55,782 bases of DNA from Flavobacteriales bacterium (GTDB lineage Bacteria > Bacteroidota > Bacteroidia > Flavobacteriales > ECT2AJA-044): positions 1 through 55,782 of the forward strand of contig JAGWBA010000021.1 of assembly GCA_021296215.1 (NCBI GenBank). The letters are read 5' to 3'. A program made the position numbers and the translations under genes. This document shows, piece after piece, positions 1,384 to 52,251 of the stretch (positions within the stretch are counted from its first letter, which is position 1; each line of letters opens with the position of its first letter). The notes beneath the pieces are model-generated. The model searched no databases. It saw nothing but the letters and a program-made list of their open reading frames with translations, and was not told the DNA's origin.

Positions 1384-1760
1384 ATGAAGGAAAGAAAAGA
1401 AGTTTATCCTATGGGCTTTCTCCTGCGTGTTGCCAGGGAGTATGTTGAAGGAGATCAGAGCAGTTGCCAATTGACCAGAAAGTACAATGTGAGCAAATCG
1501 ATTGTATTGGTATGGGGGAAAAGTATGGAAAGCGTTTTTGCGAGAATCAGGTATCAAACCGTACCTTGGAACCTATGAAAGAGAAGGGAAAGTTCCGACG
1601 AGAAGGAGAGGATACTGCGGCGTACATACGCCGTTTGGAGTGCTCCTTGGAGGAAGCCCAGGACAAGGCTTATCTCTTACAGCGTGTCATCGAGCTCAGC
1701 GAAGAAGAGCTCGGTATTGAGCTGCCAAAAAAGTCTATTGCCAAGTCGTTCAAGAATTAA
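1384..1760 (+). pseudogene. IS3 OrfA (HTH transposase subunit), frameshifted
   Basis: The ATG at 1384 opens a helix-turn-helix start (KERKEVYPMGFLLRVAREY, then SCQLTRKYNVSKS) in frame 1. After about codon 44 the family sequence (EKYGKRFCENQVSNRTLEP, then a leucine-zipper-like segment around RRLECSLEEAQDKAYLLQRV) continues in frame 3 and ends at the TAA at 1758-1760. Restoring a single G in the G-run at 1514-1518 would rejoin the two parts, so one G was lost or miscalled. OrfA normally binds the terminal repeats and, by -1 frameshifting, forms the OrfAB transposase. Without repair neither full OrfA nor OrfAB can be made from this copy. Confidence 0.8.
1727..1733 (+). other. Programmed -1 ribosomal frameshift site (A AAA AAG)
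   Basis: In the orfA frame the codons read CCA AAA AAG, placing A-AAA-AAG exactly as the canonical IS3 slippery heptamer. A -1 slip moves translation into the orfB frame, which is open from here through the first in-frame orfB methionine (1802) and on to 2611. This site is the normal route to the OrfAB fusion and is separate from the accidental shift at 1514-1518. Confidence 0.85.
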
Positions 1761-1792
1761 ACGAGCGCAAGAGCGTTTCGTATGGATGTAGA

Positions 1793-2611
1793 TTGCTTGG
1801 TATGAGCCGTCGGGCTTCTTACAAACATCTTCATAATCGTAAAGAGCGCGAAGAAGGCCATTTTAGGCTTCTTTATGCTGTACGGGAGTTGCGTAAGGCT
1901 CACCCGAGAATGGGAGCTCGCAAGCTGCGTAAGCCATTAATGGATCATCCTGATGTTATTGGAAGAGACCGGTTCATGCGGCTATTACGCGAACATGGAC
2001 ATTTGGTTCGTAGGAAACGCAATCCGGTTCGAACCACCAACTCTAATCACATTTACAAGCGTTATTCAAACCTCGTTAAAGGCATGGTCATAGACCGCCC
2101 TATGCGGGTATGGGTAAGTGATATCACCTATGTATACCTAGGCGGAAAGCATGCCTACTTGAGCCTGATCACCGATGCGTATTCGCGTAAGATCGTTGGG
2201 GCAAAACTGGCATCTACATTAGCGTCAAGACACACCTTGGATGCACTCAAAAGTGCTTTAATGGCGGAAGGCTCTCCTCAGTATCATCACTCCGATAGAG
2301 GAATCCAGTACTGCTGTCATGAGTATACAAACGAGTTAAAGAAGTACAATATTCAGATCAGCATGACCCAAACCGGAGATCCACTCGATAATGCCATCGC
2401 AGAACGAGTGAACGGCATCATCAAGAACGAATACTTGTACCCTTTTATTAAACGAAATCAAGACATCGACCGCTGTTTACTTCAGGCTCTTGAAGCCTAC
2501 AACACAGTAAGACCACATATGTCTTGTAACATGGAAACACCACAACAAATCCATGAAGTGTTAACCCAAGTAAGGAATAGAAATCAAGTGTTAACTTACA
2601 TCAGTCATTAA
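1793..2611 (+). CDS. IS3 OrfB, DDE integrase/transposase domain
   Basis: This is the catalytic part of the OrfAB transposase, which cuts and joins the element ends. Numbered from 1793, the DDE triad is D110 (WVSDITY), D168 (HHSDRGIQY) and E204 (NAIAERVNG), with 35 residues between the second D and the E, the standard rve spacing. The N-terminal 80 residues are the HTH_21-like region (HPRMGARKLRK). The frame is open upstream to the A6G site, so the functional product is probably an OrfA-OrfB fusion rather than a protein started at 1793. The reading frame is intact, with all three acidic residues present. Only the loss of a proper OrfA should disable it. Confidence 0.9.
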   Translation: MLGMSRRASYKHLHNRKEREEGHFRLLYAVRELRKAHPRMGARKLRKPLMDHPDVIGRDRFMRLLREHGHLVRRKRNPVRTTNSNHIYKRYSNLVKGMVIDRPMRVWVSDITYVYLGGKHAYLSLITDAYSRKIVGAKLASTLASRHTLDALKSALMAEGSPQYHHSDRGIQYCCHEYTNELKKYNIQISMTQTGDPLDNAIAERVNGIIKNEYLYPFIKRNQDIDRCLLQALEAYNTVRPHMSCNMETPQQIHEVLTQVRNRNQVLTYISH

Positions 2612-35617: not shown

Positions 35618-35725
35618 AAACCGTTCAACGAGGGTATGTAAAGGTAACGAAATAATAGAGATGTGGATTGGCATAGAAACCTGGTAGTCTCTAACTTGGT
35701 GCTTTTAAACGAAAAGAAAACGACC

Positions 35726-37111
35726 ATGTCGAAGATCAATAGCTACATCGAAGAAAATAAAGATCGGTTCTTGAACGAGCTGCTCGACCTACTCCGAATT
35801 CCCGGCATAAGTGCGGATCCAGCGTATAAAGGCGACGTTCTGAAATGCGCTGAAGCCGTGCGAGATAGACTCGTTGAGGCGGGAGTGGATAGCGCGGAAA
35901 TTTGTGAAACTCCGGGGTATCCGATCGTTTATGGTGAAAAATTCGTTGGCGAAGGGCTTCCGACCGTGCTCGTTTACGGACATTACGACGTGCAGCCAAG
36001 TGATCCGGACGATCTTTGGGATTCCCCAGCTTTTGAGCCGGTGATCAAAAAGACCGACATCCACCCTCAGGGTGCGATATTCGCTCGAGGGTCGTGCGAC
36101 GATAAAGGCCAAATGTACATGCAAGTGAAGGCCTTTGAGGCATTGGTGAAGACGGGAGAGCTTCCGTGCAATGTAAAGTTCATGATCGAAGGTGAAGAAG
36201 AGGTCGGGTCCGAAAGCTTGGATGGATTCGTCAAGGCCAATCGCGAGAAACTTAAGAACGACATCATCCTGATTTCCGATACGGGAATGTTGGGTAACGA
36301 TACGCCGAGCATCACGACCGGTCTTCGCGGATTAAGCTATGTGGAAGTTCAGGTTACCGGTCCTAATCGCGACCTACACTCTGGACTCTATGGGGGCGCT
36401 GTAGCCAACCCCATCAATATTTTGGCGAAAATGATTGCCTCGTTGCAAGACGAAAACAACCACATCACCATACCCGGATTCTACGACAAGGTGATCGAGC
36501 TGAGCGACGAGGAGCGGGCCGATATGGCGCGTGCTCCGTTCAATCTGGAAGCCTACAAAGCATCACTTGACCTCACAGATGTGCACGGCGAAAAAGGGTA
36601 CGTTACCATGGAGCGTAATTCGATCCGCCCTACACTGGACGTGAATGGTATCTGGGGCGGATACACAGGCGAAGGCGCCAAGACCGTCATCGCGAGCAAA
36701 GCCTACGCTAAGATATCGATGCGCTTGGTACCGGATCAAGATCCAAAGGAGATCACCGAGTTATTTACGAAACACTTCGAAAGCATTGCGCCCCCCAGCG
36801 TTCGGGTTAATGTAACCCCACATCACGGAGGCCACCCTTACGTGGCTCCGACCGACACCCCAGGGTATTTAGCGGCGAGTAAGGCCATGGAAGAGACCTT
36901 CGGTAAAACGCCGGTACCGGTGCGTAGCGGTGGAAGTATTCCGATCGTAAGTCTCTTCGAAAAAGAGCTCGACAGCAAGAGTATTCTGTTCGGCTTTGGT
37001 TTGGATAGCGATGCCATCCACTCACCCAATGAGCACTTTGGATTGTTCAATTTCTACAAGGGAATTGAGACGATTCCATTGTTCTACAAGAACTTCGCGA
37101 TGAATTCTTAA
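35726..37111 (+). CDS. M20-family dipeptidase (zinc metallopeptidase)
   Basis: A 461-residue cytosolic aminoacyl dipeptidase of the M20/CNDP type. Zinc and catalytic residues are visible: H86-x-D88 in YGHYDVQPSDPDDLWDSP, bridging D125 in RGSCDDKGQ, the glutamates in MIEGEEEVGSES (E157-E159), ISDTGM, and the C-terminal histidine in DAIHSPNE. The lid domain carries LRGLSYVEVQVTGPNRDLHSG. No signal peptide. ATG at 35726 is chosen because the upstream part of the frame has no family match. Divergent from the T9SS pair across 108 bases. Confidence 0.92.
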   Translation: MSKINSYIEENKDRFLNELLDLLRIPGISADPAYKGDVLKCAEAVRDRLVEAGVDSAEICETPGYPIVYGEKFVGEGLPTVLVYGHYDVQPSDPDDLWDSPAFEPVIKKTDIHPQGAIFARGSCDDKGQMYMQVKAFEALVKTGELPCNVKFMIEGEEEVGSESLDGFVKANREKLKNDIILISDTGMLGNDTPSITTGLRGLSYVEVQVTGPNRDLHSGLYGGAVANPINILAKMIASLQDENNHITIPGFYDKVIELSDEERADMARAPFNLEAYKASLDLTDVHGEKGYVTMERNSIRPTLDVNGIWGGYTGEGAKTVIASKAYAKISMRLVPDQDPKEITELFTKHFESIAPPSVRVNVTPHHGGHPYVAPTDTPGYLAASKAMEETFGKTPVPVRSGGSIPIVSLFEKELDSKSILFGFGLDSDAIHSPNEHFGLFNFYKGIETIPLFYKNFAMNS

Positions 37112-37214
37112 TTGGCTCATAGTCCACAAGTCCATTGTCCACAGTTCATGGTTGATTGGTTGAGATTTCTTAACTAGTTGATTGGCTTACGGCCTATGGC
37201 AATGAAACTAAGAA
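37112..37214. repeat. Convergent gap with intergenic repeat words
   Basis: Contains GTTCATGGTTGATTGGTTG (37144-37162), CTAGTTGATTGGCTTACGGCC and AACTAAGAACTAAGAACTCC (37206-37225, running into the next gene's 3' end). No other feature. Confidence 0.5.
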
Positions 37215-40200
37215 CTAAGAACTCCTAAGCCTTCTCCACCTCATGTAGGCCACCGAGCTCAACAGCACTAACGAAATCACGGCTATATACACCCACTGTG
37301 GAATGGGAACAGGATCACCGGCGGCGTAGCTGTGGAGTCCACTGAGGTAGTAATTGACCCCGTAATAGGTCATGATCACTGATGCCAGTCCGAAGAGGGT
37401 GCCGACATTAAATGCGAACATATTCCTAAAGGCCGGAATAAAACGCATGTGCAAGATCACGGCATAAACCAATATCGAAACGAGCGCCCAAGTCTCTTTG
37501 GCATCCCAGCCCCAATAGCGTCCCCAGGACTCGTTTGCCCAAACCTCACCGAGGTAGGTTCCGACCGATTGCATGAAGAGTCCGGCCGTGAGCGTTATCT
37601 CACTGATGGCACTTAACTCTTCGATTTTCGGCCGCGTCTTTTTCCATCGTTGTCGACTCGCCGTTGCGATCAGCAACAAATTGATCAGCCCGATGATGGC
37701 ACCGAGCATCAAAAAGCCATAGCTACCGGCCTCCAGACTCACGTGGATAGTGAGCCAGTACGATTTAAGCACCGGAAGGAGCGGGGTGATCTCCGGATTC
37801 AAATAGCTGAGCATGGCGATCAGCAGCACCACCGACGCCAGAATATTGGTTGCCGCCAAAGCGCCGACCGAACGTCGCGCGAATAGGGTTCCGGCCAAAG
37901 TAGAAGTCCAGGCGATGTAGATCATACTCTCATAGCCATTACTCCAGGGTGCCCGCCCGCTGACATACCACCGCAGGCCGAGTCCAACCGTGTGAAAAAT
38001 AAAGGCCAACATCAGCGCTCCGGTCAAAATCCGAGCCCATCGGCTATGTAGTGGCTTTTCTATGAACACACCGGCAAACAGCAAGGTCAGGAACAACAAA
38101 CCCAGGAACAGGTATACCAAGGCTAGCCTATTGAAGGGCTTCCATTCGTTAAGCCAAATCTCGGCGCTGCGCTTGGCATCGGTCGGAACCAAATCCGTGC
38201 CTTGATTCCTCTGATAGCGATCGAGGTCGGCCGCTAGGTCATTAGCTTGTTGGTATTGGCCCTCTCGGGCCGATGTCCTCAATGCGCTTCGATACGAGTT
38301 AAAGAAGCGGGCCGCCACCTCGGTCGGTTGCTCACTGCGATGGTGTGCGCCTGAAGACCACCGCCGTGCAGGGTCATCCGGCACGGGCACCAATCGAAAA
38401 AGCATGCCTGAAAACACCATGTTCATGATGTTCACCCGCTCATCGACACTGATCAAGTTTTTCTCATAAACGCCTTTCTCGGTAGCGTCCATCATATTGG
38501 CACGAGCGACCTCATCGCCCAATTTGTACGATCCGTCTTCGTTGAAGAAATCGCGATAAACCGCTTTATCCCCCTCTACTCCAACCAATTGGTTTAATCG
38601 CTCTGCCTTGCCCAACTTCACGAATTCAACCGCATACCAAGCCGAAGGCTCTGTCCACGTACTCAATACCACTTGGTCGGCATTGAGACCCGACCACGAC
38701 TCACTTCCGTGGATTTTGCGCAAGATTTCCCGGCTCAGTGTGTGCATGGGCTTCATGCGCCCTCGAACGTCCTGAACGATCAGTTCCGAAAAACGCTCGG
38801 CATGGTCTTCGTCGATCTGAGGCACGGTTTGACCTTGAACCTGACCGGCCCAAGAGACCGCTATTAAAATCGCAATCGCTGCTCCCCTGTTCCGAAGCTT
38901 GGTCACGCGCTGTCCCAATTCGGCAAATCGCGTGTTTTTTGAGAACAGCGTCAACAACATACCCAAGGTCAGCAGTGCATAGCCCAGATAGGAAGTCCAC
39001 GTTCCTAAAGCATCGTGATTCACACTGAGGTAGATCCCAAGCTCATCGCGATCGTAGCTCGATTGAAATAAACGATAACCCCGATAGTCCAGAATATGGT
39101 TCATAAATATGCGAAACGGGCGATCAACACCGCGTTCCTGATCGTGAATGATGACCTCGCTCGCAAAACTTTCCGGAGAGTTGGTGCCCGGGTATCGCGT
39201 CATTTCAAAATCGAGCAATTCGAGCGAAAAAGGCACCTTCACTCGTTTTGCCCCATAACCGGCCCCTACAACATCGCCAACGACGACCTGCAATACACGG
39301 CCTTCAAGCCCTTTTTGACCCGTAATCAGCAACTCTTCAGCTCTCCCATCGGCCGTGACCTCCAACCTTAGTCCATTGGTAGATCCGCTAACCAACTTGG
39401 AGCTGCCCGGCAACCATTGTAGTTCACCGGACGGCATAAAATCACCAAACACGAAGGCCCCGTAACTCGATTGGTACAGGCTTCGGAAACGCAGCATATG
39501 CCACTTATCGAGCATCAGGGTGTCCATTGCTCCCGTGGCCATGACCCGCTCTATCAAGGGCGCATCGGCCCGTAGGGCCATAGAATCACCACTCCACCTC
39601 AAAGAAAAGGACCGCGGAGACGGATCATCACTAAAATCAAAGGGCACGCCTTGAATGAGCCGCTGATCACCTGGCGAGAGGTAGTACTCGCTTCGACCAT
39701 TGGCCCCTCCAAAAACCACCTTGAGCAATGGCTTACCATTTTCAGAAGACCGTGCGCTGATACTCGCGTTTGGCAAGAACTCCAACAGGCGAACGCGGAT
39801 CGATTTTCCGTCGAGCTCAAAGATCTCGTCAAACGCATTGGTGCCGAGCGTACCAAAAAGCACTTTTCGATCGATCTAGTACGATCGGTCCCCAACTTCG
39901 AATTGAAGCCCGACGTACGATTCGCGACTTAAAAAGTAATTCGACGAATCCCCTTCACGGATGTGCATGGTGCCTTCAAAACCGTAAAATCGAGTGAAGG
40001 CCAACCCAACAGGATCACGAGCATCGCCCCGTGAAAAATCAGAACCGTCCAACGCCGTCTTTGAATGAGTTTGAACTGAATGATGTTATACACCAAGCTG
40101 CCGCCGAACAAAAAAAGCAGTGTTTCGAACCAAGTCGCCCTGTAAACCACCTTCTGGGCGGTATCGGTGCCAAAATCGTTCTCCACAAAGGTGGCCGCAC

Positions 40201-40276
40201 CCACGGCAATGGCAAACACAGCCAAGTACAACAATGCAGCTCGCCTACCCAACAACATCTCGAACACCTTCTTCAT
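37215..40276 (-). pseudogene. ccsBA: Fused cytochrome c maturation protein ResB-CcsA, two lesions
   Basis: System II cytochrome c synthase, which exports haem and attaches it to CxxCH. The 5' part (from ATG 40276) reads MKKVFEMLLGRRAALLYLAV then FVENDFGTDTAQKVVYRATW, the usual ResB start. It loses frame near 40001-40008. After restoring one base the protein continues FTRFYGFEGTMHIREGDSSN, then hits an in-frame TAG at 39876-39878 (...EVGDRSY-stop-IDRKVLFGTLG). The remaining 882 codons are open and include the CcsA haem-handling motif SWGRYWGWDAKETWA and the expected histidines (HTVGLGLRWY, TIHVSLEAGSYGF, LHMRFIPAF). So one frameshift and one amber stop inactivate an otherwise complete 1,020-residue gene. 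It is the last gene of the decaying module. Whether another c-type maturation system exists in the genome is not visible here. Confidence 0.85.
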
Positions 40277-40277
40277 A

Positions 40278-41036
40278 TCAACGCGTCAATCGTGCATCCT
40301 CCAAAATGAAATCGTACCGATAGCCGGCACCAAAATCCCGATCCGCTCTAAATGTCCCTTCAAAAGTCAATTCGTGTCCGGCCGGAATCTGCTCCGCCGT
40401 AGTCAATACAAAGTCAAACGAATTCATGGTCCCGTCCGCCAAATGCACCCAATTGCGGTCCATGATGTTCGGATTCACCTTCACCACACGCCCGGTCACT
40501 TTGACTTGTTTGCCGACGTATTCTTCTGAATTCGCTATCAATTCTTTAATGGATACGGACCCTACGGGTCGATCGAGGGCTTTCACGGGTTTCTCAATTT
40601 CCTGCACGGGCGCCTTGGTCATCCAGGCCCGCCTACCTTCCGATTCCTCCGACTTCAGATCCGACACCAAGTAGATCTCTTCAAAGGTTCTATCGAATTC
40701 GGTACTGTGGTAGTTCGTTTTGTACAACCCTTGGTGAAAAACGTAGTGCCCACCAACTTCAAAGAGGCCTTTTCGCGTAGCCAACCACGTTTACGAACCA
40801 TCGGACATACGAACTTGCAGGTACTGATATCGCTCTCCTTCGAGCATCTCCGGAACATGCATCTCGCGGTGCGATGCGTCGTAATCCGAAACCGTTTTAG
40901 ACTGACCCGGCTCGTTGAAGACATCGGTTTTATAAGACTCCTGTTCAGTACCTACGGAGTCATTAGCTTCGAGTGAAGTTTTGTTTTGTCCGCAAGCTAC
41001 GACGAAGAAAAGCGCGCTTGTTCCCCTGCTTAGAAT
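40278..41036 (-). pseudogene. Lipoprotein with GW-like and OB-fold domains, ochre stop
   Basis: The frame reads from a lipobox (LFFVVACGQN, cysteine codon 40992-40994) through SYKTDVFNEPGQSKTVSDYD and ERYQYLQVRMSDGS. It then meets an in-frame TAA at 40791-40793 and continues TWLATRKGLFEVGGHYVFHQ in the same frame. The first domain resembles the beta-rich GW-type domain of NrfJ-like proteins found beside multihaem cytochromes (YLxVxxxDGxxxWLA). The second (YVGKQVKVTGRVVKVNPNIM, HLADGTMNSFDFV) is an OB fold. No ATG, GTG or TTG precedes the lipobox in frame; the frame also overlaps the barrel gene, so the start is lost too. A lysine codon (AAA to TAA) is the simplest ancestor of the stop. Confidence 0.75.
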
Positions 41037-42582
41037 ATTCGCCGAGTGCGCCCAATCGCCAGGCCGATGCCAGTCGGGTGTTCGCCTCTACACCGTAGTA
41101 GTGTTGGCCGGGAACTTGAATGTCAACAGAAGTATTCTCATACGACAAGCCCCGGTAATAAATTGCCGAGTACGCTTTTCCATCGAAGAAATTTCGGCTG
41201 TATCGGGCCGACCACAACCGGGTCGACAAATACCTCGATGTTGTTCGGCCATATCGCGCTGATAAATTGCCACCGATCCACGGTAGTCGATACATTCCGT
41301 AGATCTGTACGAATTGACTGTAGTTCTCGGTATTCAGCTCCTTTCGGTAATTGTAGACCGCCCCGATCGACCAACCTCCACTCGATCGGTAATTCAGGCG
41401 AACTCGGTAACCTTGTCGTATGTTTTGTTCGGCCAGCAATCGCTCGATCTCGGTGTCGAATTGCTCAAAGAAGATAATGCGGTCCCTCGAGTCGAACGAT
41501 GCAAAGGCCGTCCAATGACGATTGAATCGATAGCGCAACGATGCGTAAATACTCGTGAGCTTGAATGTGCTTGCCGCTGAGGCCGTATCGAAATTCTCGT
41601 AAAGGTCTACTTCTCCCGAAGCGAAGGCATACCATTTACCGACGGAGGTCGACTGTTGCAAATAAAGATGCCGTCGATCTACATTCCTATTATTCCGCTG
41701 CTCTAAAAACCCGAGTGTAGCTTGGGTCCACCAATCGCCCTTGCGCTTGTCGAATCCGCTGTATACTCCGTATTCAAAAAGCGATGGGTCGTAGCCAAAG
41801 TCATCGAGATCGGGTCGCGAACCCACTATGGCACCAGCGTAGAATGCACCCCAATACTTTTCGGCTTGTAAACCATCTATAGGTCCTAGTGACGATGCCT
41901 TGTGATTAATGGCACGGCCCGGGGTGATGCGGAGTGAATCGCGAGCGTGGCAGGTAATTGCAGCTCTGTAGATATTGACCAAAGTCGTAGGGCCACTGCT
42001 CGGATTATTATCGGACCGTATATACTCCTGATAATTGAGATAGGTATTGAACGAAAAGCGAGAACCAGCTATGCGATCGGCATTTACATAGGCCCTTCCC
42101 ACAAGCCGGGTGTACCCTCCCACGTTGTCGTCCGGGGTATAATTGCTGTAGCTCGCAAAGGAAATTCGACCATCAACATGGTCAGGTCTGGCTTTTTTTA
42201 CTTCGGGTTCGACCTCAGGTTCCTCGGTCGTGGCCGCGGTGTCGACCTCGGTACTAGAGGTGGCAACCAGAGCTGCAACCGCGGGCTCGGCTTCGGGAGG
42301 TCTCTTTTTAATCAGGATCACTTCGTCGCCTTTGGCGGGATCACAATCACCAATACGCTCCGTTACCGCCGATACGGACGAGATCTGCATCACGCGCAAG
42401 CAAGGTTCGCCCCCAAAAAAGAGGGTATCGCCTTGGGTTAGGTCCGAGGTGTTCGAAAAACGCACATACACGTTCTCCGATGCTACATAGCTCACCTCTC
42501 CCGACACGGACGTGTTTTGGGCCACAGTAGCAAATCGTGCCGTAGGCACTAGAAAAAGTAAAAGGACAAAACGTTTAATCAT
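40963..42582 (-). CDS. Outer-membrane beta-barrel, possible porin of the cytochrome module
   Basis: A 539-residue protein: signal peptide (MIKRFVLLLFLVPTARFATVAQ), a small N-terminal beta domain (SYVASENVYVRFSNTSDL), an acidic linker (about 115-150), then some 16 or more amphipathic strands (YRFNRHWTAFASFDSRDRI, IGAVYNYRKELNTENYSQF, QIYGMYRLPWIGGNLSARYG). The layout suits an outer-membrane porin that could wrap or dock a periplasmic cytochrome, as MtrB-type porins do; this role is inferred from position only. It is the only gene of the module without an internal stop. However, the signal peptide contains an arginine in its core, and the C-terminus (RAFLRRSLRTKQNFTRS) lacks the usual terminal aromatic strand, so it may also be damaged. 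Confidence 0.65.
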   Translation of the reverse strand: MIKRFVLLLFLVPTARFATVAQNTSVSGEVSYVASENVYVRFSNTSDLTQGDTLFFGGEPCLRVMQISSVSAVTERIGDCDPAKGDEVILIKKRPPEAEPAVAALVATSSTEVDTAATTEEPEVEPEVKKARPDHVDGRISFASYSNYTPDDNVGGYTRLVGRAYVNADRIAGSRFSFNTYLNYQEYIRSDNNPSSGPTTLVNIYRAAITCHARDSLRITPGRAINHKASSLGPIDGLQAEKYWGAFYAGAIVGSRPDLDDFGYDPSLFEYGVYSGFDKRKGDWWTQATLGFLEQRNNRNVDRRHLYLQQSTSVGKWYAFASGEVDLYENFDTASAASTFKLTSIYASLRYRFNRHWTAFASFDSRDRIIFFEQFDTEIERLLAEQNIRQGYRVRLNYRSSGGWSIGAVYNYRKELNTENYSQFVQIYGMYRLPWIGGNLSARYGRTTSRYLSTRLWSARYSRNFFDGKAYSAIYYRGLSYENTSVDIQVPGQHYYGVEANTRLASAWRLGALGEYSKQGNKRAFLRRSLRTKQNFTRS

Positions 42583-42587
42583 GGCTA

Positions 42588-44048
42588 CTATTCGGAACCG
42601 TCCGGATGACAGTTGTAGCAGGCGGTACTTTGGTAAACATAGCCGTTCACCTCATCGTGTTCATCGGCTAAATCGTTAGGGTCATCGTGCTCGTGGCAGT
42701 CGATACAACTAAATAAGGTGTAGTTGTTCGGCGTCGTATGGCAATCGATACACGTGTTCCACTCGCCTTGGTGGTTACCCGAATAGATCGGGAAGCATTG
42801 ACCGTCGTGATCCGTAAAACCGGCTGGGGTCCAGCCGGGGTCGAGGGAGTGGCACAAGGTACACTCGGTACTGAAGCCTTGGTCGGCGTGATTCGGATCG
42901 GTGGTGTTGTTGAAATCGTCGATATGGCACGAGGCACATTCGCTACTGATCTGTGTATAGTCCGCGCTCGTATGACACGCGTTACAGTCGGCGACATCGT
43001 GTACTCCGGTCAGGTGGAACATGGAGTGAAATCCGGGGATGTTCCAGCCGATGGTGTTGGGATCGTGGCAATCGGTACACGCCATGGAGTAGCCCGATGC
43101 GTTGTGGTCGGGTTCTGTAGTGGCCAAGAAGTCGTCCGTATGGCACGAGTTGCATTCCGAGGAAATATTGTCGTACGGCATGCTGGTGTGACACTCGACA
43201 CAAGCCGAGCCATCGTGATTTCCAGTAAGCGGGAAAGCAGAGTGAAAACCTAGAACACTCCAGCCAATGGTATTGACGTCGTGACACTCGGTGCATTCCA
43301 TTGAAAAACCTGCAGCACCGTGGTCCGGCTCAGTGGTGGCCATGAAATCATCGGTATGGCATGAGCTGCATTCAGAAGAAATCGAACCATAGGGTTGACT
43401 CGTATGGCATTAGTTACAATCGCCGATGTCGCGGTTTCCGGTCAAGGGAAAGCCCAAGTGAAAATCCTCACCTACGCCCCATTCAACGGCATCGACATTA
43501 TGACACTCGATGCAATCGAGCGAGAAACCCACTTCGGTGTGGTTGGGAACGCCGGTGGTCAGATAATCGTCGCGATGGCAGTCTACGCATTCGTTTCAGA
43601 TGGGTTGGAAAGCGAGCGGGTTCCCACCGGTATGGCAGTCGTTGCACGAAATAATTCGGTGGGTTCCCTGTAGAGGAAATCCGTTTTGTTCGTGGAGTTC
43701 CGGAATATCGAAAACGAGCCAACTATTACTGTCGTGGCATCGGTTGCAGTCGTTCCCGACGGTTTGCTGGTGCACATCCTCATGGCAGCTGAAACAATCC
43801 ATTTCGGCCCCTTTGAAGCTCAGATCATCGTGGCAATCGGTACATGAAATATTTTTGTGTTGGCCTTCGAGCTCGAAACCAGTGGCTTTATCGTGATCAA
43901 AGGTCATTTGGTCCAGCCGAATGTCCCAGCCGCCCGAATGGTGGCAGTCGCGGCAATCGATCTTGAGTTCATCGCCGTGTGGGTTTTGTCCGGAGGCTAG
44001 AGCAGGAGCCAGCAGGCAAGCGAGTAGAATTGCCTTCAAAAAATTCAT
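42588..44048 (-). pseudogene. Multihaem c-type cytochrome (19 haem sites), two in-frame stops
   Basis: From ATG 44048 a signal peptide (MNFLKAILLACLLAPALASG) leads into a protein with 19 CxxCH sites. About 70-residue repeats each carry three (pattern CxxCHTS...SECxSCHxDDF...ECTxCHDxNTIGW). One frame runs through the whole gene, but TGA at 43596-43598 (...LAFQPI-stop-NECVDCH) and TAA at 43410-43412 interrupt it. The second stop falls inside haem motif eight (DCN-stop-CHTS). No frameshift is needed to read the rest. The simplest ancestors are Ser/Trp/Arg for the TGA and Gln/Lys for the TAA. Without readthrough only a five-haem N-terminal fragment would be made. Predicted location periplasm or cell surface. 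Confidence 0.88.
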
Positions 44049-44095: not shown

Positions 44096-45748
44096 TCAAG
44101 AGTGGCAATCGATACAATCAAAACGTTTTATCTTATAGATTATGATGTCGCTATTCTCCTCCGGCTTGTGGCAGGCGTCGCATTTGATCTGTGCGTGTCG
44201 GCCTTCGAGAATGAACTGCGTACTGTCGTGATCGAATTTGGCAATGGGCCAGTCGGTAGCAATAGCATGGCATCGAGCGCAATCACTCGAACTTTCGGGG
44301 GTGTCGAATTGAGCTCCGTGGGCGATTCGTCGGAATGGCACTCGGTGCAGGCTTTATCGCGTCCTTTGAATTGTTGAGTATCCCAATCTTCACTAAAATG
44401 GCAAGCGCGGCAATCGGCCGAACCGTGAACGCCTTCGAGGGGCCAATCGGTTCTGCTGTGGTCGAAGGTGATGGATGTCCAAGTATCGTTGTTGTGACAT
44501 TCGGTGCAGCCGTTCATCGAGCCGAAAGGCTCATCCATATATCCCTCGTGAATATTGTCGTGGCAAGCGACGCAGCTCTCCGATTCGAGGGTGAAATACC
44601 ACCGCTGTTCCTCGCTGGGCTTGTGGCACGCAAAGCAAGGCGTGGCGAGGTGTGCGCCTTCGTGGGGGTAGTCCGATTCTTGGTGATCCGATAAGCCGAA
44701 AGAGCTGAACGAAAATTCATGCTGCAGATCGTGGCACTGATCGCAGTCGGTAACCAAGCCTTCGATGGAAGTAAAATCACCTTCGTGGTAGTCCTCGTGG
44801 CAGTCGGTACAGTTATCGAATGGTATTGGCTGAGAATAATCGCCCGATGTGTGACTATCGGCGCACGATACCTGTTGGTGTTGGCCTTCGAGCGGAAAAT
44901 GAGTGAGGCCGTGATCGAACCTGTTTCCGGCCCGCAGTTGGCTCCAGCCGTTTACCGAGTGGCAATCGGTACAGGCAATTCCGAAGCGCCCATCGTGCTC
45001 ATCTTCGTGGCAGTCGGTGCAATTCGCAAAGGCAACCCCAGCGAATTCTTGAAACGCTTGACCATTGCGCCGGGTTTCGCGGTGGCATTCAATGTAATCT
45101 ACCTCGGTATGCCTTGCCCTCGAGCTGAAACGGCGTTTGTCCGTGATCGAAATACTCAGCCCCTTCGAAAGTGTCAAAGCTGTGGCACGAAACACAATCT
45201 TCGGCGAGGGTTCCCCAATGTTGATCGGCATGGCAGGTCAAACACGCTTCTTGCAGTCCAATGAACGTTTCGCTGCGCTTAGCGATCTCTTTATCCGCGA
45301 TATTATCGGCGGTATGGCAATCGCGACACGCGATGCGTCCGTGCTCTCCCTCGAGCGTATAGCCGGTCCGGTCGTGTTCAAACGCCTCTTCATCGAACCG
45401 AGTAGCGTCGAAGGCTCTACCGTGATGTTCGCTGTGGCAGTCGATGCACGATTACTTCTTTACATCTGAATAGGCGTGATACCCGCGATCCGCCGAAATG
45501 AGCGTTTGGATTTCCTTGTGGCAATCGAGGCATTTTTGCTCGGAGATCTTATTTCCAATATCGTGGCACTTGGTGCAATTCGATATCCCTTCCAAGTCGG
45601 CGTGCGCGGTTGAAAGCTTACCCGGCGAGAATTGAGCCAATGAAGAAAGCGACAACAGAAGCAACAGCAGCGGAATATTCGATTGTATCCTAATCCTGTT
45701 TTTATGTAGCTGTAGCTCATTAACTATAATTCTTCTCCCCCCGGTCAT
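44096..45748 (-). pseudogene. Multihaem c-type cytochrome (20 ancestral haem sites), stop, two frameshifts, two lost haem cysteines
   Basis: ATG 45748 opens a signal-anchor-like start (SNIPLLLLLLSLSSLAQF) and the first haem sites NCTKCHD and KCLDCHK. Then TAA at 45452-45454 interrupts (DVKK-stop-SCIDCH). A one-base insertion at about 45112 moves the frame, and a one-base loss near 44320 moves it back. Reassembled, 20 CxxCH positions are recognisable, in units such as CTDCHEDxHDGxF. Two sites are dead: CIECH became YIECH (codon 45094-45096) and CADCH became CADSH (codon 44854-44856). It ends RFDCIDCHS-stop at 44096. Stop, shifts and active-site substitutions together show loss of function, not recoding. 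Confidence 0.88.
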
Positions 45749-45752
45749 CACG

Positions 45753-47086
45753 CTAATTTCGGTACTTCTTAACGATCTTACCGAATTTCTTTTCGACATC
45801 GATACCGGCGTTCTTCAAAAAATCGATCGGCAATTCTCCGCCGATGAAGATGTAGACCAAATCGTTCTCCAGATATCGCTCCGTTCCGTCGGCCGTTTTC
45901 AAGGTTACCGAATCGGGCTTGATCTCCGTAACATTCGAGGAGTAAAGCACCTCAATTTCTTCCGCTTCCAACGCCGCTTCGAGTTTTTCTTGATTTCCGG
46001 GCTTTATTCGTCCAAATTGATCTTTGCGGTACGAAATACAGACATGGTTTCGATCCTTGAGCAACAAGGCCGACTCCACGGCAGAATCACCTCCACCGAC
46101 CACGAGTATTTTATTATCCTCGATCAATTCCGGGTCGAGCAACCGATACGCGACCTTGGTCGAAACCTCATCCGGAACCTCCAATTTACGCGGGGTACCT
46201 CGCCGTCCAATGGCTATGAGCACTTGATCGGCAAAAACCGGATCTCGTTCCGCAATTTCTCAAGTATATGCGCCTGCGGCGCGATGAATGGCATCGACCT
46301 TATGCCGTTCGCGCACCTCGATGTTGTGCTTTTCGATCGCATCGGTCCAAATATCCAATAGCTCATGCTTGCCGGTATTGACCAACTTCACAGGCCCGTA
46401 CAGTGGAAGGTCCATCGGCCGGGTCATGACCACTTTTTGTTGCGGAAAAGTAAATACCGTTCCGCCGAGCGAGCCTTGTTCGAGGATCACAGCTTTCATA
46501 CCCAGGCATTTGGCCTCGAGCGCGGCGGCGATTCCGGCCGGACCCGCACCTACGATGGCCAGATCAACTTCGACTTCGGATTGCTCTGGTCTGTTATTGT
46601 GCGCCGTTCTAACGGCCTGTATTCCCTGTTCCGCGCTGTTCTTTATAAGGCCCATTCCACCCAATTCCCCGGCAATATAGATCCCCGGCACATTGGTCTC
46701 ATAATCGGGCTTTACATGGGGCAAGTCAACACCCCGCTTTTCAGTGCCGATTCGCACTGAAATGGCTTCGACCGGACAGGCGTGAAAGCACGTTCCGTGA
46801 CCAATGCACGCGGTGGCGTTGATCACCGTTGCCTTTCCGTTGATAAGCCAAAGAATATCCTGCTCGGGGTAAGCTCGTACGCAAGCACCACTTCCAATAC
46901 AGCTACAGCGATTGAGGTCGATGTACGGATGAAGGGACACGGGTTCGAATCGGCCCGATTCCTTCGCTTTGTTCATTTTATCGCGAACTTCGGCCGATTT
47001 TCGTTTTCCCTTGCGCACATAGACCGCAACTACTATGATGACGAATAAGAAAGTAAGACCATATGTTATGACTTCCTCGAGAGCAT
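45753..47086 (-). pseudogene. Membrane-anchored ferredoxin/FAD-NAD(P) oxidoreductase, opal stop and start-region frameshift
   Basis: The body reads: a hydrophobic N-terminal span (YGLTFLFVIIVVAVYVRKG), two ferredoxin-type clusters, then a pyridine-nucleotide-disulphide-oxidoreductase fold with FAD motif VDLAIVGAGPAGIAAALEA and NAD(P) motif KILVVGGGDSAVESALLL. Lesions: the ATG (47086, sharing bases with the preceding stop) is out of frame with the span, requiring a one-base shift near 47075-47083. In the first cluster CVRACPE has become CVRAYPE (codon 46869-46871). TGA at 46260-46262 interrupts GAYT-stop-EIAERDPVFADQV in the same frame. The second cluster (CIGHGTCFHACPVEAI) is intact. It would have passed electrons from NAD(P)H towards the membrane cytochrome. 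Confidence 0.85.
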
Positions 47087-47721
47087 TAAAAGATCCATTT
47101 ATAACCCAAGGCCAGAGTTACCCCAATGTGGATGACGACGATCACCAACATGATCAACACAAAGGGCCGGTGTACGATATGCCAATAGCCAAACCATTTG
47201 TACATGGTCTTGATTCGGCGCATGCCGGCCTCTGATGCGTCGACGTCGGTTTCAATTTCTTGAAGTGATTTGGTTCGACTCGAAACCGACTTGGGAATTT
47301 GCAAGTATAAGTAGCGGCCCACTACCCCGCTGAGCACTATCGCCGTCATGCTCCAAAAGGCAACGGAAACGATTCCGCCAAACTTGAAGGTAGTGTGAAA
47401 AAGCACGAGTATGGGCCCAAGAGTGCACAAAAATATATGGAACTCGAGCAGGTATTTCAGACGGATGTATCGGTCCAGATAGCCATACATTTTTGCCGTG
47501 ATGTACATGACCACTCCAAATAAGATCATCGATGTGCCTATGATACCAAGGCCGTGCCCAAGTATACCGGAAGCTTTTTACCAATCGTACCGCGGATGGT
47601 AAAACCGCTCTTCAAGAGGCAGCGAATAGAAGTCCCATCCAACCCAGAATAAATAAGCCGTTGCGGCCACTGTAATGGCCGACATGATCAATATGTAAAA
47701 AGTGTGCTGTGCTCTTTTCAA
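47086..47721 (-). pseudogene. Membrane b-type cytochrome-like protein, ochre stop
   Basis: About 211 codons with four hydrophobic segments. The frame starts at TTG 47721 (MKRAQHTFYILIMSAITVAA), runs to FYHPRYDW, meets TAA at 47578-47580, and continues KASGILGHGLGIIGTSMILF. Histidines placed in or at the ends of helices (LEFHIFLCTLGPILVLFHTTF, YWHIVHRPFVLIMLVIVVIHIG) are candidate haem b ligands. A leucine codon (TTA to TAA) is the likely ancestor of the stop. The gene shares its stop with the start of the oxidoreductase gene. First gene of the module; it probably linked the oxidoreductase or quinones to the periplasmic cytochromes. Confidence 0.78.
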
Positions 47722-47892
47722 AATCCCAATGATCGATATTCATTGAACGACCGAAAGATGGGGTTTTGTATGAAACTACGCAATGACGAATGTTCTGAGG
47801 TGGTTGGTTGGTTGGTTGGATAAGAAAGTTAATGGCTAATGGAAGTAACCGACGGCTAGGAGTTGTTTGGTTAAGCTCATGTTGCTTATGGC
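47722..47892. repeat. Gap with GGTT run and TTATGGCCTATAGC tandem repeat
   Basis: GGTT is repeated four times at 47802-47818. AAGAAAGTTAATGGCTAATGG follows (47822-47842), a copy of the word at 14960 and 55664. TTATGGCCTATAGC occurs twice in tandem from 47886 and runs into the 3' end of the next gene, supplying its last codons. Confidence 0.55.
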
Positions 47893-49962
47893 CTATAGCT
47901 TATGGCCTATAGCCTGTGGAACCTCGAACTCCTCGGTAGGAAGCTGGCACGCCCCTTCTTCGCAGAGGTAGAACAGCGTTTTGCCGTCGACGAAACGCCC
48001 CGTAAGGAGTGGTAATTTGGAGGGCGATACGCTTCCGGCCGAGAGGCCGAAAGGAAAATAATGAGCATCGATCTGCTTTCGCATATTCAGGGCCTGCGGC
48101 CCGATGACCACCACCTCGTAAAATGGCCCTAGCTCGTTGAGGTAGAGCGACAGCCAATTGGAGTAGCCTTCGCCGTAGTGTTCCATTTGGGGCTCCACGG
48201 CATTAAGCATTTGGCGGGCGGTGTCGCGATAGCTACGGCGATCGTAGTGGAATCCGAGTCGGTACAACTGATGCGCCATGACGGAATTCGACGCGGGGAT
48301 CACGTTGTCCGAAGTTTCCATACTCCGCACCACAAGTGCTTCACCGTTGTTCGATGTGTAGTAGAACATCCCCCGCTCATCGGAGAAAAAGTGATCGAAA
48401 CAGTACAAGGCCCATTGATGCGCCTGCTGCAGATACCGCTCGTCAAAGGTGCATTCATACAGATCGAGGTAAGCCTTGATCGAGAGGGCGTAGTCGTCCA
48501 GAAAACCATCGATGCTGCTTTTGCCCTGCTTGTACGACCGCATGAGTCCGCCCGCATCGGTTCCCTGCTGCTCCAGCATCCATCTGGCCGTTCGCCGCGC
48601 CTGCTCCAAATATTCCGACTTGTCGAATGTGCGGTAAGCCGCCGCCAAACCACTCACCATAAGCGCATTCCAAGAGGTCAGGGATTTATCGTCGAGCCCC
48701 GGCCGCTCGCGTTTTGAGCGCGCCTTCAATAGTTTCGGGAGCACCTCCTCGCGAAGTTGCTTGTGCTCCGGCGAATCGTTGGTCCGGTGCAGAATGTATT
48801 TTCCTTCCCACTGCGCCTGCGGCGCGATGTTATAATAGTCGGTAAATTCAGCCCACCGTTCGGGCCGAACCACATGGCGGAGCTCCTCTTCGGTCCACGT
48901 GTAAAATGCACCCTCTTCCCCTTCACTGTCGGCATCGAGGGCACTGTAAAAACTCCCACTGGACTCATCGTACATTTCGCGCATCGCAAACTCGATACTC
49001 TGATGAACCGCCTCGGCATACAGAGGATCGGCCTGCTGCCGGAAAGCTATGCTGTATAGTTCGATCAGCTGACCGTTGTCGTAAAGCATCTTCTCGAAGT
49101 GCGGGATCTTCCATTCGGGATCAGTGGCATAGCGGGCCCATCCACCTCCGACCTGGTCGTAGATGCCGCTCAACACCATTTTTCGCAAGGTGTGGTGAAC
49201 GTGTTTCACCACAGCCGAATCGTTCTGCCGCACACCGTAGCGCAATAGAAATTCATAGTTGGTCGGCATTGGAAACTTCGGCGCTCTATCGGGTCCACCC
49301 CGCTGCAGATCGAATCCTTTTTTCCAATTCTCTACGATCGAATCCACGAATTCCGCTTTGGGCTTAAGTGGGTCTTTGGGGCGCTCAATGAGTTCCATCA
49401 TCTGGACACCTTCTGTGAGACGAACGGCATACTCCTCGGCCTTTTCGGGTTCGTTGGCCCAGAGCGCAGCTACCTGCTCCAGCGAATGCACCCACTGGTG
49501 TTTGGGGAAGTAAGTCCCGCCCCAAATGGGCCGCCCGTCCGGCAGGGTCACACAATTCAACGGCCATCCTCCGCGCCGGGTCATCAGCTGTACGGCATTC
49601 ATGTAGATCTGATCCACATCCGGACGCTCCTCGCGATCGACCTTGATGCAGATATAGTGCTCGTTCATCACCTCGGCCACATCTTCATCTTCAAAGCTTT
49701 CGCGTTCCATGACGTGGCACCAGTGACAGCTGCTGTACCCGACAGAGATCAGCAACAGTTTGTTTTCCTTCTTTGCCTTTTCAAGAGTCTCAGGGGTCCA
49801 AGGGTGCCAGTCGACCGGATTATGAGCATGTTGCAGGAGATAGGGCGATGTCTCGTTTATGAGGGCATTGGTGTGTGCGTGGTCATTTTTCTCGGACATA
49901 CAAGAGCAGATTATTAGAAAGCCGGTGTAAAGGAATAGCCTGATGAAGCGGGTAAAGTTCAC
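47893..49962 (-). CDS. yyaL: Thioredoxin-fold/six-hairpin glycosidase-like protein (YyaL, DUF255 family), lipoprotein
   Basis: A protein of about 689 residues. The N-terminal thioredoxin-like DUF255 domain has [11 protein letters not shown] and [18 protein letters not shown]-type CxxC (SSCHWCH) with [10 protein letters not shown]. The remainder is an alpha/alpha-toroid (N-acylglucosamine epimerase/cellobiose-epimerase fold), with [30 protein letters not shown] and [12 protein letters not shown]. In-frame starts are TTG 49983 or GTG 49962. The latter gives a good lipoprotein signal ([14 protein letters not shown]). The function of this conserved family (human SPATA20 relative) is unknown. The gene is undamaged although flanked by broken genes. 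Its C-terminus (AIGHKL) is encoded by an intergenic repeat. Confidence 0.85.
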
Positions 49963-49983
49963 ATTCTTCAAGGTACGAATCAA

Positions 49984-50288
49984 CTTGGTTGATTGGTTGA
50001 ATAGTTCATGGAAAAACGCAGCACTGCAGCCCCGGGTTTAACCCCGGGGGTCCATGAGGTGAAACCTTGTACACGATTACCCAACGCACGATCCTTTGGC
50101 ACCGGGTTTTAACCAGGGGGTTTAAAAGCTCAATTGTAAAACGGAATTTCGGACCTTGTTTTCTGACCCGAAGAACCTGAAGCTGAATCCAAAGCAACTA
50201 AGAACTCAACACTAAGAACTCCATAACACTGCCTTAACACTCCAAAAATCTTAGAGTTGCAGCAATTATCCGCATTTGCGGTCAACCT
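49984..50288. repeat. Gene-free divergent gap with REP-like palindromes
   Basis: No gene. TTGGTTGATTGGTTG at 49986-50000, GTTCATGG at 50004. A REP-like palindrome CCCCGGGTT...AACCCCGGGG lies at 50030-50049, with a decayed copy ACCGGGTTTTAACCAGGGG at 50101-50119. ACTAAGAACTCAACACTAAGAACTCC is near 50199-50222. Both flanking genes face away, so promoters must lie here, but no clean TAnnTTTG is visible. Confidence 0.55.
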
Positions 50289-52251
50289 ATGGAGACCTTC
50301 TATCTTTTGATCGTTGTGGTGCTCGTTGGACTTGCGGCTACGGATTTAGTCGTTGGAGTCAGCAACGATGCCGTGAACTTCCTAGATTCCGCTATTGGCT
50401 CCAAAGTAGCCACGTACAAAATCATTATGATCGTAGCCGGTGCGGGTATCTTTATCGGGGCTACCTTCAGCAGCGGCATGATGGAGATCGCTCGGAAAGG
50501 GATCTTCAACCCTCAGTATTTCAGTTTTGCGGAGATCATGATCCTTTTCGCCGCAGTGATGATCACGGATATCCTCCTGCTCGATTTCTTTAGCACCTTC
50601 GGATTACCGACCTCGACAATTGATCAAAGGGATCAAAGGGGCCGGCTTCGTCAGCGGAGATAGCATCCATTGGATAGGAGACAACGCTCTGATACTCATT
50701 GGTGCTTCTCTGGTTTTTTGGGCCGGAATCTTTCAATTGTTGATCGCCTTTGGAATTAACATCCTCAAATGGATCGTGATGTTCGGCACCTTTTCGTTCG
50801 CCATGGCCTTCTCCGGAAACGACCTAGTGAACTTCATTGGAGTACCCATTGCCGGACTCGAGAGCTACCTTATCCGGAAAGACTCCGGTGTGCCGGCCAA
50901 TGAATTTATGATGAACGTACTTTCAGAACCGGTGCGCACAAATACTTGGTGGTTGCTTGCGGCCGGATTCATCATGGTGGTTACGTTATGGTCTTCAAAA
51001 AAGGCCCGTACCGTGGTTGAAACACAAGTCGATTTGGGTCGACAAGCGGCCGGAGACGAGCGCTTTGAACCAACCGCTTTAGCTCGTGCATTGGTCCGGA
51101 GTGGGCGCGTGATAGGGTCATCCTTGTAGAGTCTGCTTCCGCGAACGACACGTCGGAAGATCAACGTGAGCTATAGACCCGTTGGGGTACCGGAGGATCC
51201 CGAAGTGGCTTTTGATCTGGTTCGCGCATCGGTAAATTTGACCGTTGCCGCCATGCTCATCTCCTTTGCGACCAATTTAAAGCTCCCCCTTTCGACCACA
51301 TACGTGAGTTTTATGGTGGCCATGGGTGCTTCGCTGGCCCATAGAGCCCGGGATTGCGAAAGTGCCGTTTACCGCGTAAGCGGGGTGGTGAACGTCGTGG
51401 CCGGATGGTTCATAACGGTCGGAGTTGCGTTTGCCGTGGCTGCTTTGTTCGCGTACATCATACACAAAGCCCATATGACCGGTCTCTTTGGATTAATTCT
51501 GGTCGTGGGGTTCATCCTCTTCCGAAGTTACGCCTACCACCGAAAGTCTTCAAGCAGGAAAAAAGCAAAGGGCTCACTCGTGGCCTTGGCCGATAAACCG
51601 GAGTTTGAAGTCCGCCAGATGATCGCGCAAAATGTGACGCAAATGCTGAACCTGAGTCTCGAAGCAACGGAAAGCACCTTCGATGCCGTGTTCAAGGAAG
51701 GTCGCGATTCGGTCAATTCGGCGATGAAACGGGTCGATAAATACAACGACGAAAGCAGTCGAATGAATACCGATTTCTATCGCTTTTTGCGAAAGGAGAA
51801 GGAATCGGACCGCGAACTTCAACAAGGCTTGCTCAAAGTTCTCGATCACTATCAGGATGTGGTGCGAAGTGTGAAATTCATGCTTCAGAGTATCGACGCA
51901 CATTTGGCCAACAGCCACGCCCCATTCCGCGAAGGACAGGTGGCTCACCTCATGAACTTGTGGCACGGCCGGAAGATCATGGTCGAGAAGGTCAATGCGA
52001 ATTTGCCTGGATCGGACGAGCTGGTTCAGGAGGAGCTGCGCATTAAAAAGAAAACTTTGATGGCGAAGGTCGATGAATACCTGGCCGAACAATTCGAGCG
52101 CGCATCTACGGGTGCCGTGAGTCAGCGAAATCACGAACTCTACATCCTCTTGGTTCAGGAAATGAAGGACCTAGTGGCCGTTACCCCACGCTTCGTGAAG
52201 GCCATGAACAAGGTCGAGGTCAAATCAGCTTCTTCGGGATCCCCGCAATAA
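50289..52251 (+). pseudogene. PiT-family phosphate transporter with PhoU-like tail, internal deletion and amber stop
   Basis: Low-affinity inorganic phosphate permease of the Bacteroidota PiT-PhoU type. The first signature GVSNDAVNFLDSAIGSKVA and later SGNDLVNFIGVPIAG are the paired PiT motifs. After FGLPTST (about codon 110) the sequence jumps, out of frame at about 50620, to IKGIKGAGFVSG. Around 100 residues of the central helices appear deleted, judging by the usual length of about 750. The second segment then meets TAG at 51127-51129 (VIGSSL-stop-SLLPRTTRRKINVSYRPVG) and continues in the same frame to LVRASVNLTVAAMLISFATN and a C-terminal PhoU-like helical domain (about the last 220 residues). 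SLAHRARDCESAVYRVSG departs from the usual SLADRAWGRESAVYR. Overlaps tsaB tail-to-tail by 32 bases. Confidence 0.85.

Follow-up and report, generated by a model that had tools for sequence, protein, structure and literature searches.

A multihaem cytochrome that has lost two haem cysteines, very probably a pseudogene within a seven-gene Bacteroidota operon decayed throughout

Why should a large multihaem cytochrome lack two of the cysteines that would hold its haems? The question is raised by a stretch of 55,782 nucleotides from a Flavobacteriales bacterium, the whole of which is called the window here, and in which a preliminary description had picked out 20 CxxCH positions in one cytochrome, with one altered to YIECH and another to CADSH, each by a single base change. 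Translation of the minus strand from 45860 to 44060 in three frames bore this out: 18 intact CxxCH motifs, nine in each of two frames, are accompanied by the two altered ones, whose codons are TAC (Tyr) and AGT (Ser), both one base away from a cysteine codon. All 20 sites pair one to one with the 20 CxxCH of the intact protein of genome G058. An intact relative matches the Pfam family Cytochrome_C7; a signal peptide was judged by eye, and comparison of a cytochrome profile with the PDB gave one match, the cytochrome c family protein 3ov0.

Both altered sites are cysteine in all seven intact homologues of a first alignment, in which every one of the 20 motifs is CxxCH. At these two sites the same was found when the alignment was widened to 17 sequences, two of which are partial and stop short of both sites: the 15 that cover them all have cysteine at both, and none is naturally without it. 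Counted over haem-motif residues, deviations number 2 of 60 in this gene against 0 of 420 in the seven intact proteins (Fisher p ~0.015), which is not chance; taken alone, two residues of 60 are weak evidence. Elsewhere in the gene, 10 of the 159 columns that are invariant in all seven homologues are changed, and the intact homologues, left out one at a time, gave between 1 of 160 and 17 of 176. Our answer to the question is that the cytochrome is very probably a genuine pseudogene within a seven-gene operon that has decayed in its entirety, and that an electron conduit was recently lost with it. The case is also a warning, for motif counting would still credit the dead cytochrome with 18 haems.

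The cytochrome, gene 3 of the operon, is one of seven broken genes (Table 1). We mapped lesions by frame-aware alignment of the window with a profile for each gene, built from five to eight intact homologues, and found damage in all seven genes: seven in-frame stops spread over six genes, three frameshifts, and a deletion across the junction of genes 5 and 6. TAA, TGA and TAG are all represented among the stops, and most of the lesions are substitutions or longer deletions, single-base indels being the minority. It had been argued beforehand that the cysteine losses, as changes independent of the frame lesions, speak against indels as the sole cause, and this reasoning is upheld; the seven in-frame stops are likewise not indel artefacts. 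In gene 2, the tyrosine at position 46871 replaces a cysteine of the first 4Fe-4S motif, one that is invariant in seven of seven relatives. The extent of the junction deletion can be seen in the distance between two landmarks, the GEYS conserved in gene 5 and the lipobox-like cysteine of gene 6, which is 37 nt in the window and 107 in G058. Gene 7, for its part, retains 886 open codons.

Table 1. Genes and lesions of the operon and its neighbours, in window coordinates.
Feature	Position	Strand	Remarks
M20 peptidase, intact flank	35714..37105	+	
Gene 7, ResB-CcsA fusion (system II cytochrome c maturation), pseudogene	37218..40276	-	Frameshift near 40003; in-frame TAG 39878-39876; rest open
Gene 6, lipoprotein-like protein	40278..41010	-	Start removed by gene 5/6 junction deletion; in-frame TAA 40793-40791
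Gene 5, predicted outer-membrane beta-barrel	41032..42582	-	Last ~20 residues gone through deletion across gene 5/6 junction; no internal stops
Gene 4, smaller multihaem cytochrome, pseudogene	42588..44048	-	In-frame TGA 43598-43596 and TAA 43412-43410; 19 CxxCH
Gene 3, larger multihaem cytochrome, pseudogene	44096..45748	-	2 of the 20 haem sites lost; two frameshifts and one in-frame stop
Gene 3, second frameshift	44315..44330	-	Near 44325, place approximate
Gene 3, Ser codon replacing second Cys of CxxCH (CADSH)	44854..44856	-	
Gene 3, Tyr codon replacing first Cys of CxxCH (YIECH)	45094..45096	-	
Gene 3, frameshift	45110..45114	-	Near 45112, place approximate
Gene 3, in-frame TAA	45452..45454	-	Homologues have Lys (6/7) or Gln (1/7)
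Gene 2, FAD/NAD-binding protein with two 4Fe-4S motifs, pseudogene	45762..47081	-	In-frame TGA 46262-46260; 4Fe-4S Cys replaced by Tyr at 46871
Gene 1, membrane protein, pseudogene	47089..47706	-	In-frame TAA 47580-47578; 69 residues absent relative to homologues
DUF255/DsbH-like protein, intact flank	47896..49983	-	Directly adjoins the M20 peptidase in G001
PHO4-type phosphate transporter, neighbour, also a pseudogene	50289..52248	+	Out-of-frame loss of ~95 residues; in-frame stop 51127-51129

The operon can be read in its intact form from relatives, in which the order is membrane protein, FAD/4Fe-4S protein, two multihaem cytochromes, barrel, lipoprotein-like protein and ResB-CcsA fusion. 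In G058 these seven genes encode 285, 439, 533, 340, 535, 247 and 1027 residues, and G032 has the same gene order with similar lengths. Open homologues of all seven, in order, are present in G032, G058, L017 and L021, and partial sets in L016 (genes 1-6), L022 (genes 3-7), L019 and L020 (genes 1-4) and L018 (genes 1-3). The operon genes of the L series were assigned by blastp at 1e-8. Some contigs or stretches of the series end within the operon, but for L019 and L020 the outcome at this threshold is simply that genes 5-7 were not found. The cytochrome itself is rare: at an E-value of 1e-60 or better it occurs in 9 of 395 genomes of the class, namely that of the window (G000) and eight others.

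Domain assignments were made on intact relatives. Gene 2 matches Pyr_redox and 4Fe-4S families in Pfam, gene 4 like gene 3 matches Cytochrome_C7, and gene 7 matches ResB and Cytochrom_C_asm (PF05140, PF01578) over their cut-offs. Genes 1, 5 and 6 gave no Pfam match, and none of the NCBIfam matches listed was over its cut-off, TIGR03144 coming just under with 175.4 bits for the gene 7 relative against a cut-off of 187.6. For gene 5, no sequence match was found in Pfam, NCBIfam or the PDB chains; the AlphaFold model of the G058 protein consists mostly of beta strands (mean pLDDT 73.4), and among PDB structures it comes closest to outer-membrane barrels, at low TM-scores of ~0.3-0.5. The smaller cytochrome, gene 4, varies in its number of haem motifs, with 19 CxxCH in the window compared to 13 in most relatives and 28 in the version of L021; in the window its repeated haem modules are expanded by 144 codons, from 43433 to ~43002. 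As a conserved seven-gene electron-transfer operon, the system merits investigation in those relatives where it is still whole.

How the window came to hold a broken copy was considered by comparison with G001, a genome of the same genus in a single contig, which is collinear with the window. The two genes flanking the operon, DUF255 and M20, abut in G001 with nothing between them; no operon genes were found there, and searching the genome with a piece of the cytochrome and with gene 7 gave a distant match at most. The PHO4 gene, too, was found in G001 neither at the corresponding place nor by search. We make a tentative proposal, which we hold with some reserve: that the genus is shedding a rare and apparently undescribed Bacteroidota conduit, of seven genes and at least 33 haems and with a haem-attachment protein to itself, so that the window would stand in mid-decay and G001 would be the clean end state, with the nearby phosphate-transporter gene going the same way. 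If true, it becomes possible to assign dates and an order of steps to the loss of a respiratory trait.

Another history would start from the opposite end. Instead of an old operon of the genus on its way out, the operon may have arrived later from another part of the phylum, failed to be retained and decayed, a possibility to be taken seriously though we stop short of adopting it. In several outgroups (e.g. G022, G042, G033 and G024) the M20 and DUF255 genes are close neighbours with no operon separating them, and in G032 and G058 the operon lies at another place in the genome, which together with the rarity of its cytochrome in the class would suit a late arrival. Against this, the G+C content of the operon is level with that of its surroundings, and in the protein tree no sister of the window is well supported, the value at one relevant node being 65%. 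Furthermore, G001 also lacks the PHO4 gene, which in G008 sits between M20 and DUF255, so that a deletion in G001 is an equally easy reading. The two flanking genes are convergent in G001 and point in the same direction in the outgroups named. A recent foreign origin argued from base composition is unsupported, given the level G+C across the locus. Late acquisition would alter the history only; the verdict that the genes are pseudogenes is unaffected by it.

The edges of the operon have features of their own. Short phrases recur in the intergenic stretches 47884-47913, 37150-37240 and 50040-50240: a 14-base unit is present twice, there are runs resembling AACC, and a phrase like GAGTTCTTAG occurs on either side. 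At the left end of the window (1449-2608), outside the block shared with G001, ORFs resembling an insertion-sequence transposase were seen by eye.

A different kind of explanation would place the stops, shifts and cysteine changes not in the organism at all but in sequencing or assembly errors of a draft genome, which is in 135 contigs. Such errors take no account of gene content, and G001 therefore served as a gene-by-gene control. Low-overlap ORFs were taken from 80 kb of G001, 61 in number, of which 30 match the window and 29 were kept after one remote paralogue had been dropped. These 29 orthologues align to the window over 86-100% of their length in a single frame. Stops occur in four of the alignments; three lie at columns 3-17, where the coding part has probably not yet begun, and the fourth at column 174 of 178, and all 29 syntenic genes are thus unbroken in the body. 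The damage found in the window is restricted to the operon, where every gene is hit, and to the neighbouring PHO4 gene, both of which are missing from G001. Because errors would not halt at operon boundaries, this confinement, as tested within the window, speaks against sequencing error, as does the preponderance of substitutions and longer deletions over single-base indels. We consider error a very improbable source of the lesions; the disrupted frames and the missing haem cysteines very probably reflect the biology of the organism, not the quality of the sequence. The comparison with G001 took the place of a cruder measure, ORF coverage, which does not discriminate as a genome-wide control: across 18 other stretches of the genome, coverage was as low or lower in 33, 69 and 9 of 456 control windows at 200, 250 and 300 aa, respectively. 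No second genome of the same species was found.

Single-cysteine haem attachment occurs in some organisms, and 18 CxxCH motifs and much conserved sequence remain in gene 3; yet that the cytochrome still functions, with two haems naturally held by one cysteine or absent and with programmed or tolerated frame changes, is scarcely credible when neither cysteine is absent in any of the 15 covering homologues, gene 3 is further interrupted by an in-frame TAA and two shifts, the operon has all three stop codons in frame, and the dedicated ResB-CcsA gene is broken. Recoding of stop codons was rejected, since TAA, TGA and TAG are all in frame within the operon and the 29 shared genes read without such stops. 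Loss of cytochrome c maturation as such was rejected as well, as contig C64 retains further Cytochrom_C_asm genes, with 822 and 224 open codons, that have counterparts in G001.

We return, then, to decay of the whole operon. The lineage very probably once possessed a seven-gene electron-transfer operon, with an inner-membrane protein at one end and a dedicated ResB-CcsA haem-attachment protein at the other, and to judge from its gene content the operon most likely moved electrons from the inner membrane into the periplasm and on to or through the outer membrane. Selection on it was presumably lifted, after which point mutations, small indels and deletions would have built up across all seven genes, in whatever order. 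Each lost cysteine would leave its haem on one thioether bond or unattached. Because gene 3 is also truncated, the two losses have no separate function; they are ordinary mutations under relaxed selection, for which no special explanation is needed.

The extent of the decay can be gauged from the stops. Random single-base changes in the codons of the seven genes yield a stop in 4.3% of cases, or in 3.5-3.9% with transition bias, and seven stops accordingly imply ~160-200 neutral changes, or 1.6-2.0% of sites. Among the 117 haem-motif residues, ~5 losses would be expected (range ~2-11), and the observed two fall at the low end of that range. In gene 3, moreover, invariant positions are mostly retained, which makes the decay recent or light. 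On this scale the loss of the operon appears to be recent, the count of haem residues and the conservation largely kept elsewhere both saying so.

In porin-cytochrome conduits of the Mtr/Pcc type, genes for a multihaem cytochrome and an outer-membrane barrel lie side by side. The operon resembles these in pairing a barrel, predicted from a structural model, with an adjacent multihaem cytochrome; it differs in adding a FAD/4Fe-4S protein and ResB-CcsA, and no sequence homology of its barrel to known conduit porins was found in Pfam, NCBIfam or the PDB chains. As gene 5 has no sequence match, we do not class the operon as a member of the porin-cytochrome conduits. The likeness to cytochrome c maturation by system II (ResB-CcsA) lies in the relative of gene 7, which carries both domains, whereas here they form one fused chain set in a multihaem operon, and the chain is broken in the window. 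A literature search found no papers on decay of multihaem cytochromes in Bacteroidota, and none was recognised as describing the seven-gene operon or its decay, most subscription journals being outside the search. The case of CcoP in Neisseria, as it appears in passages of PMC2924362, was considered as a parallel and is not close. Secreted and outer-membrane multihaem proteins have been proposed for extracellular electron transfer in activated-sludge Bacteroidota, including Saprospiraceae (PMC11495043); these are predicted proteins, and the passages of that survey at hand contain neither a seven-gene operon nor its decay. Nearer in kind is Pelobacter carbinolicus, which, according to passages of two papers (PMC2923632, PMC3543383), lost multihaem-cytochrome genes of its ancestor, as inferred from relatives that keep them, with a CRISPR spacer against hisS proposed as the cause. 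There, as in the lineage of the window, an ancestry that bore multihaem cytochromes was followed by gene loss, but in Pelobacter, by the same passages, the genes are gone, whereas in the window broken copies persist and the host belongs to the Bacteroidota. The loss of multihaem cytochromes is a known kind of event, caught here part-way.
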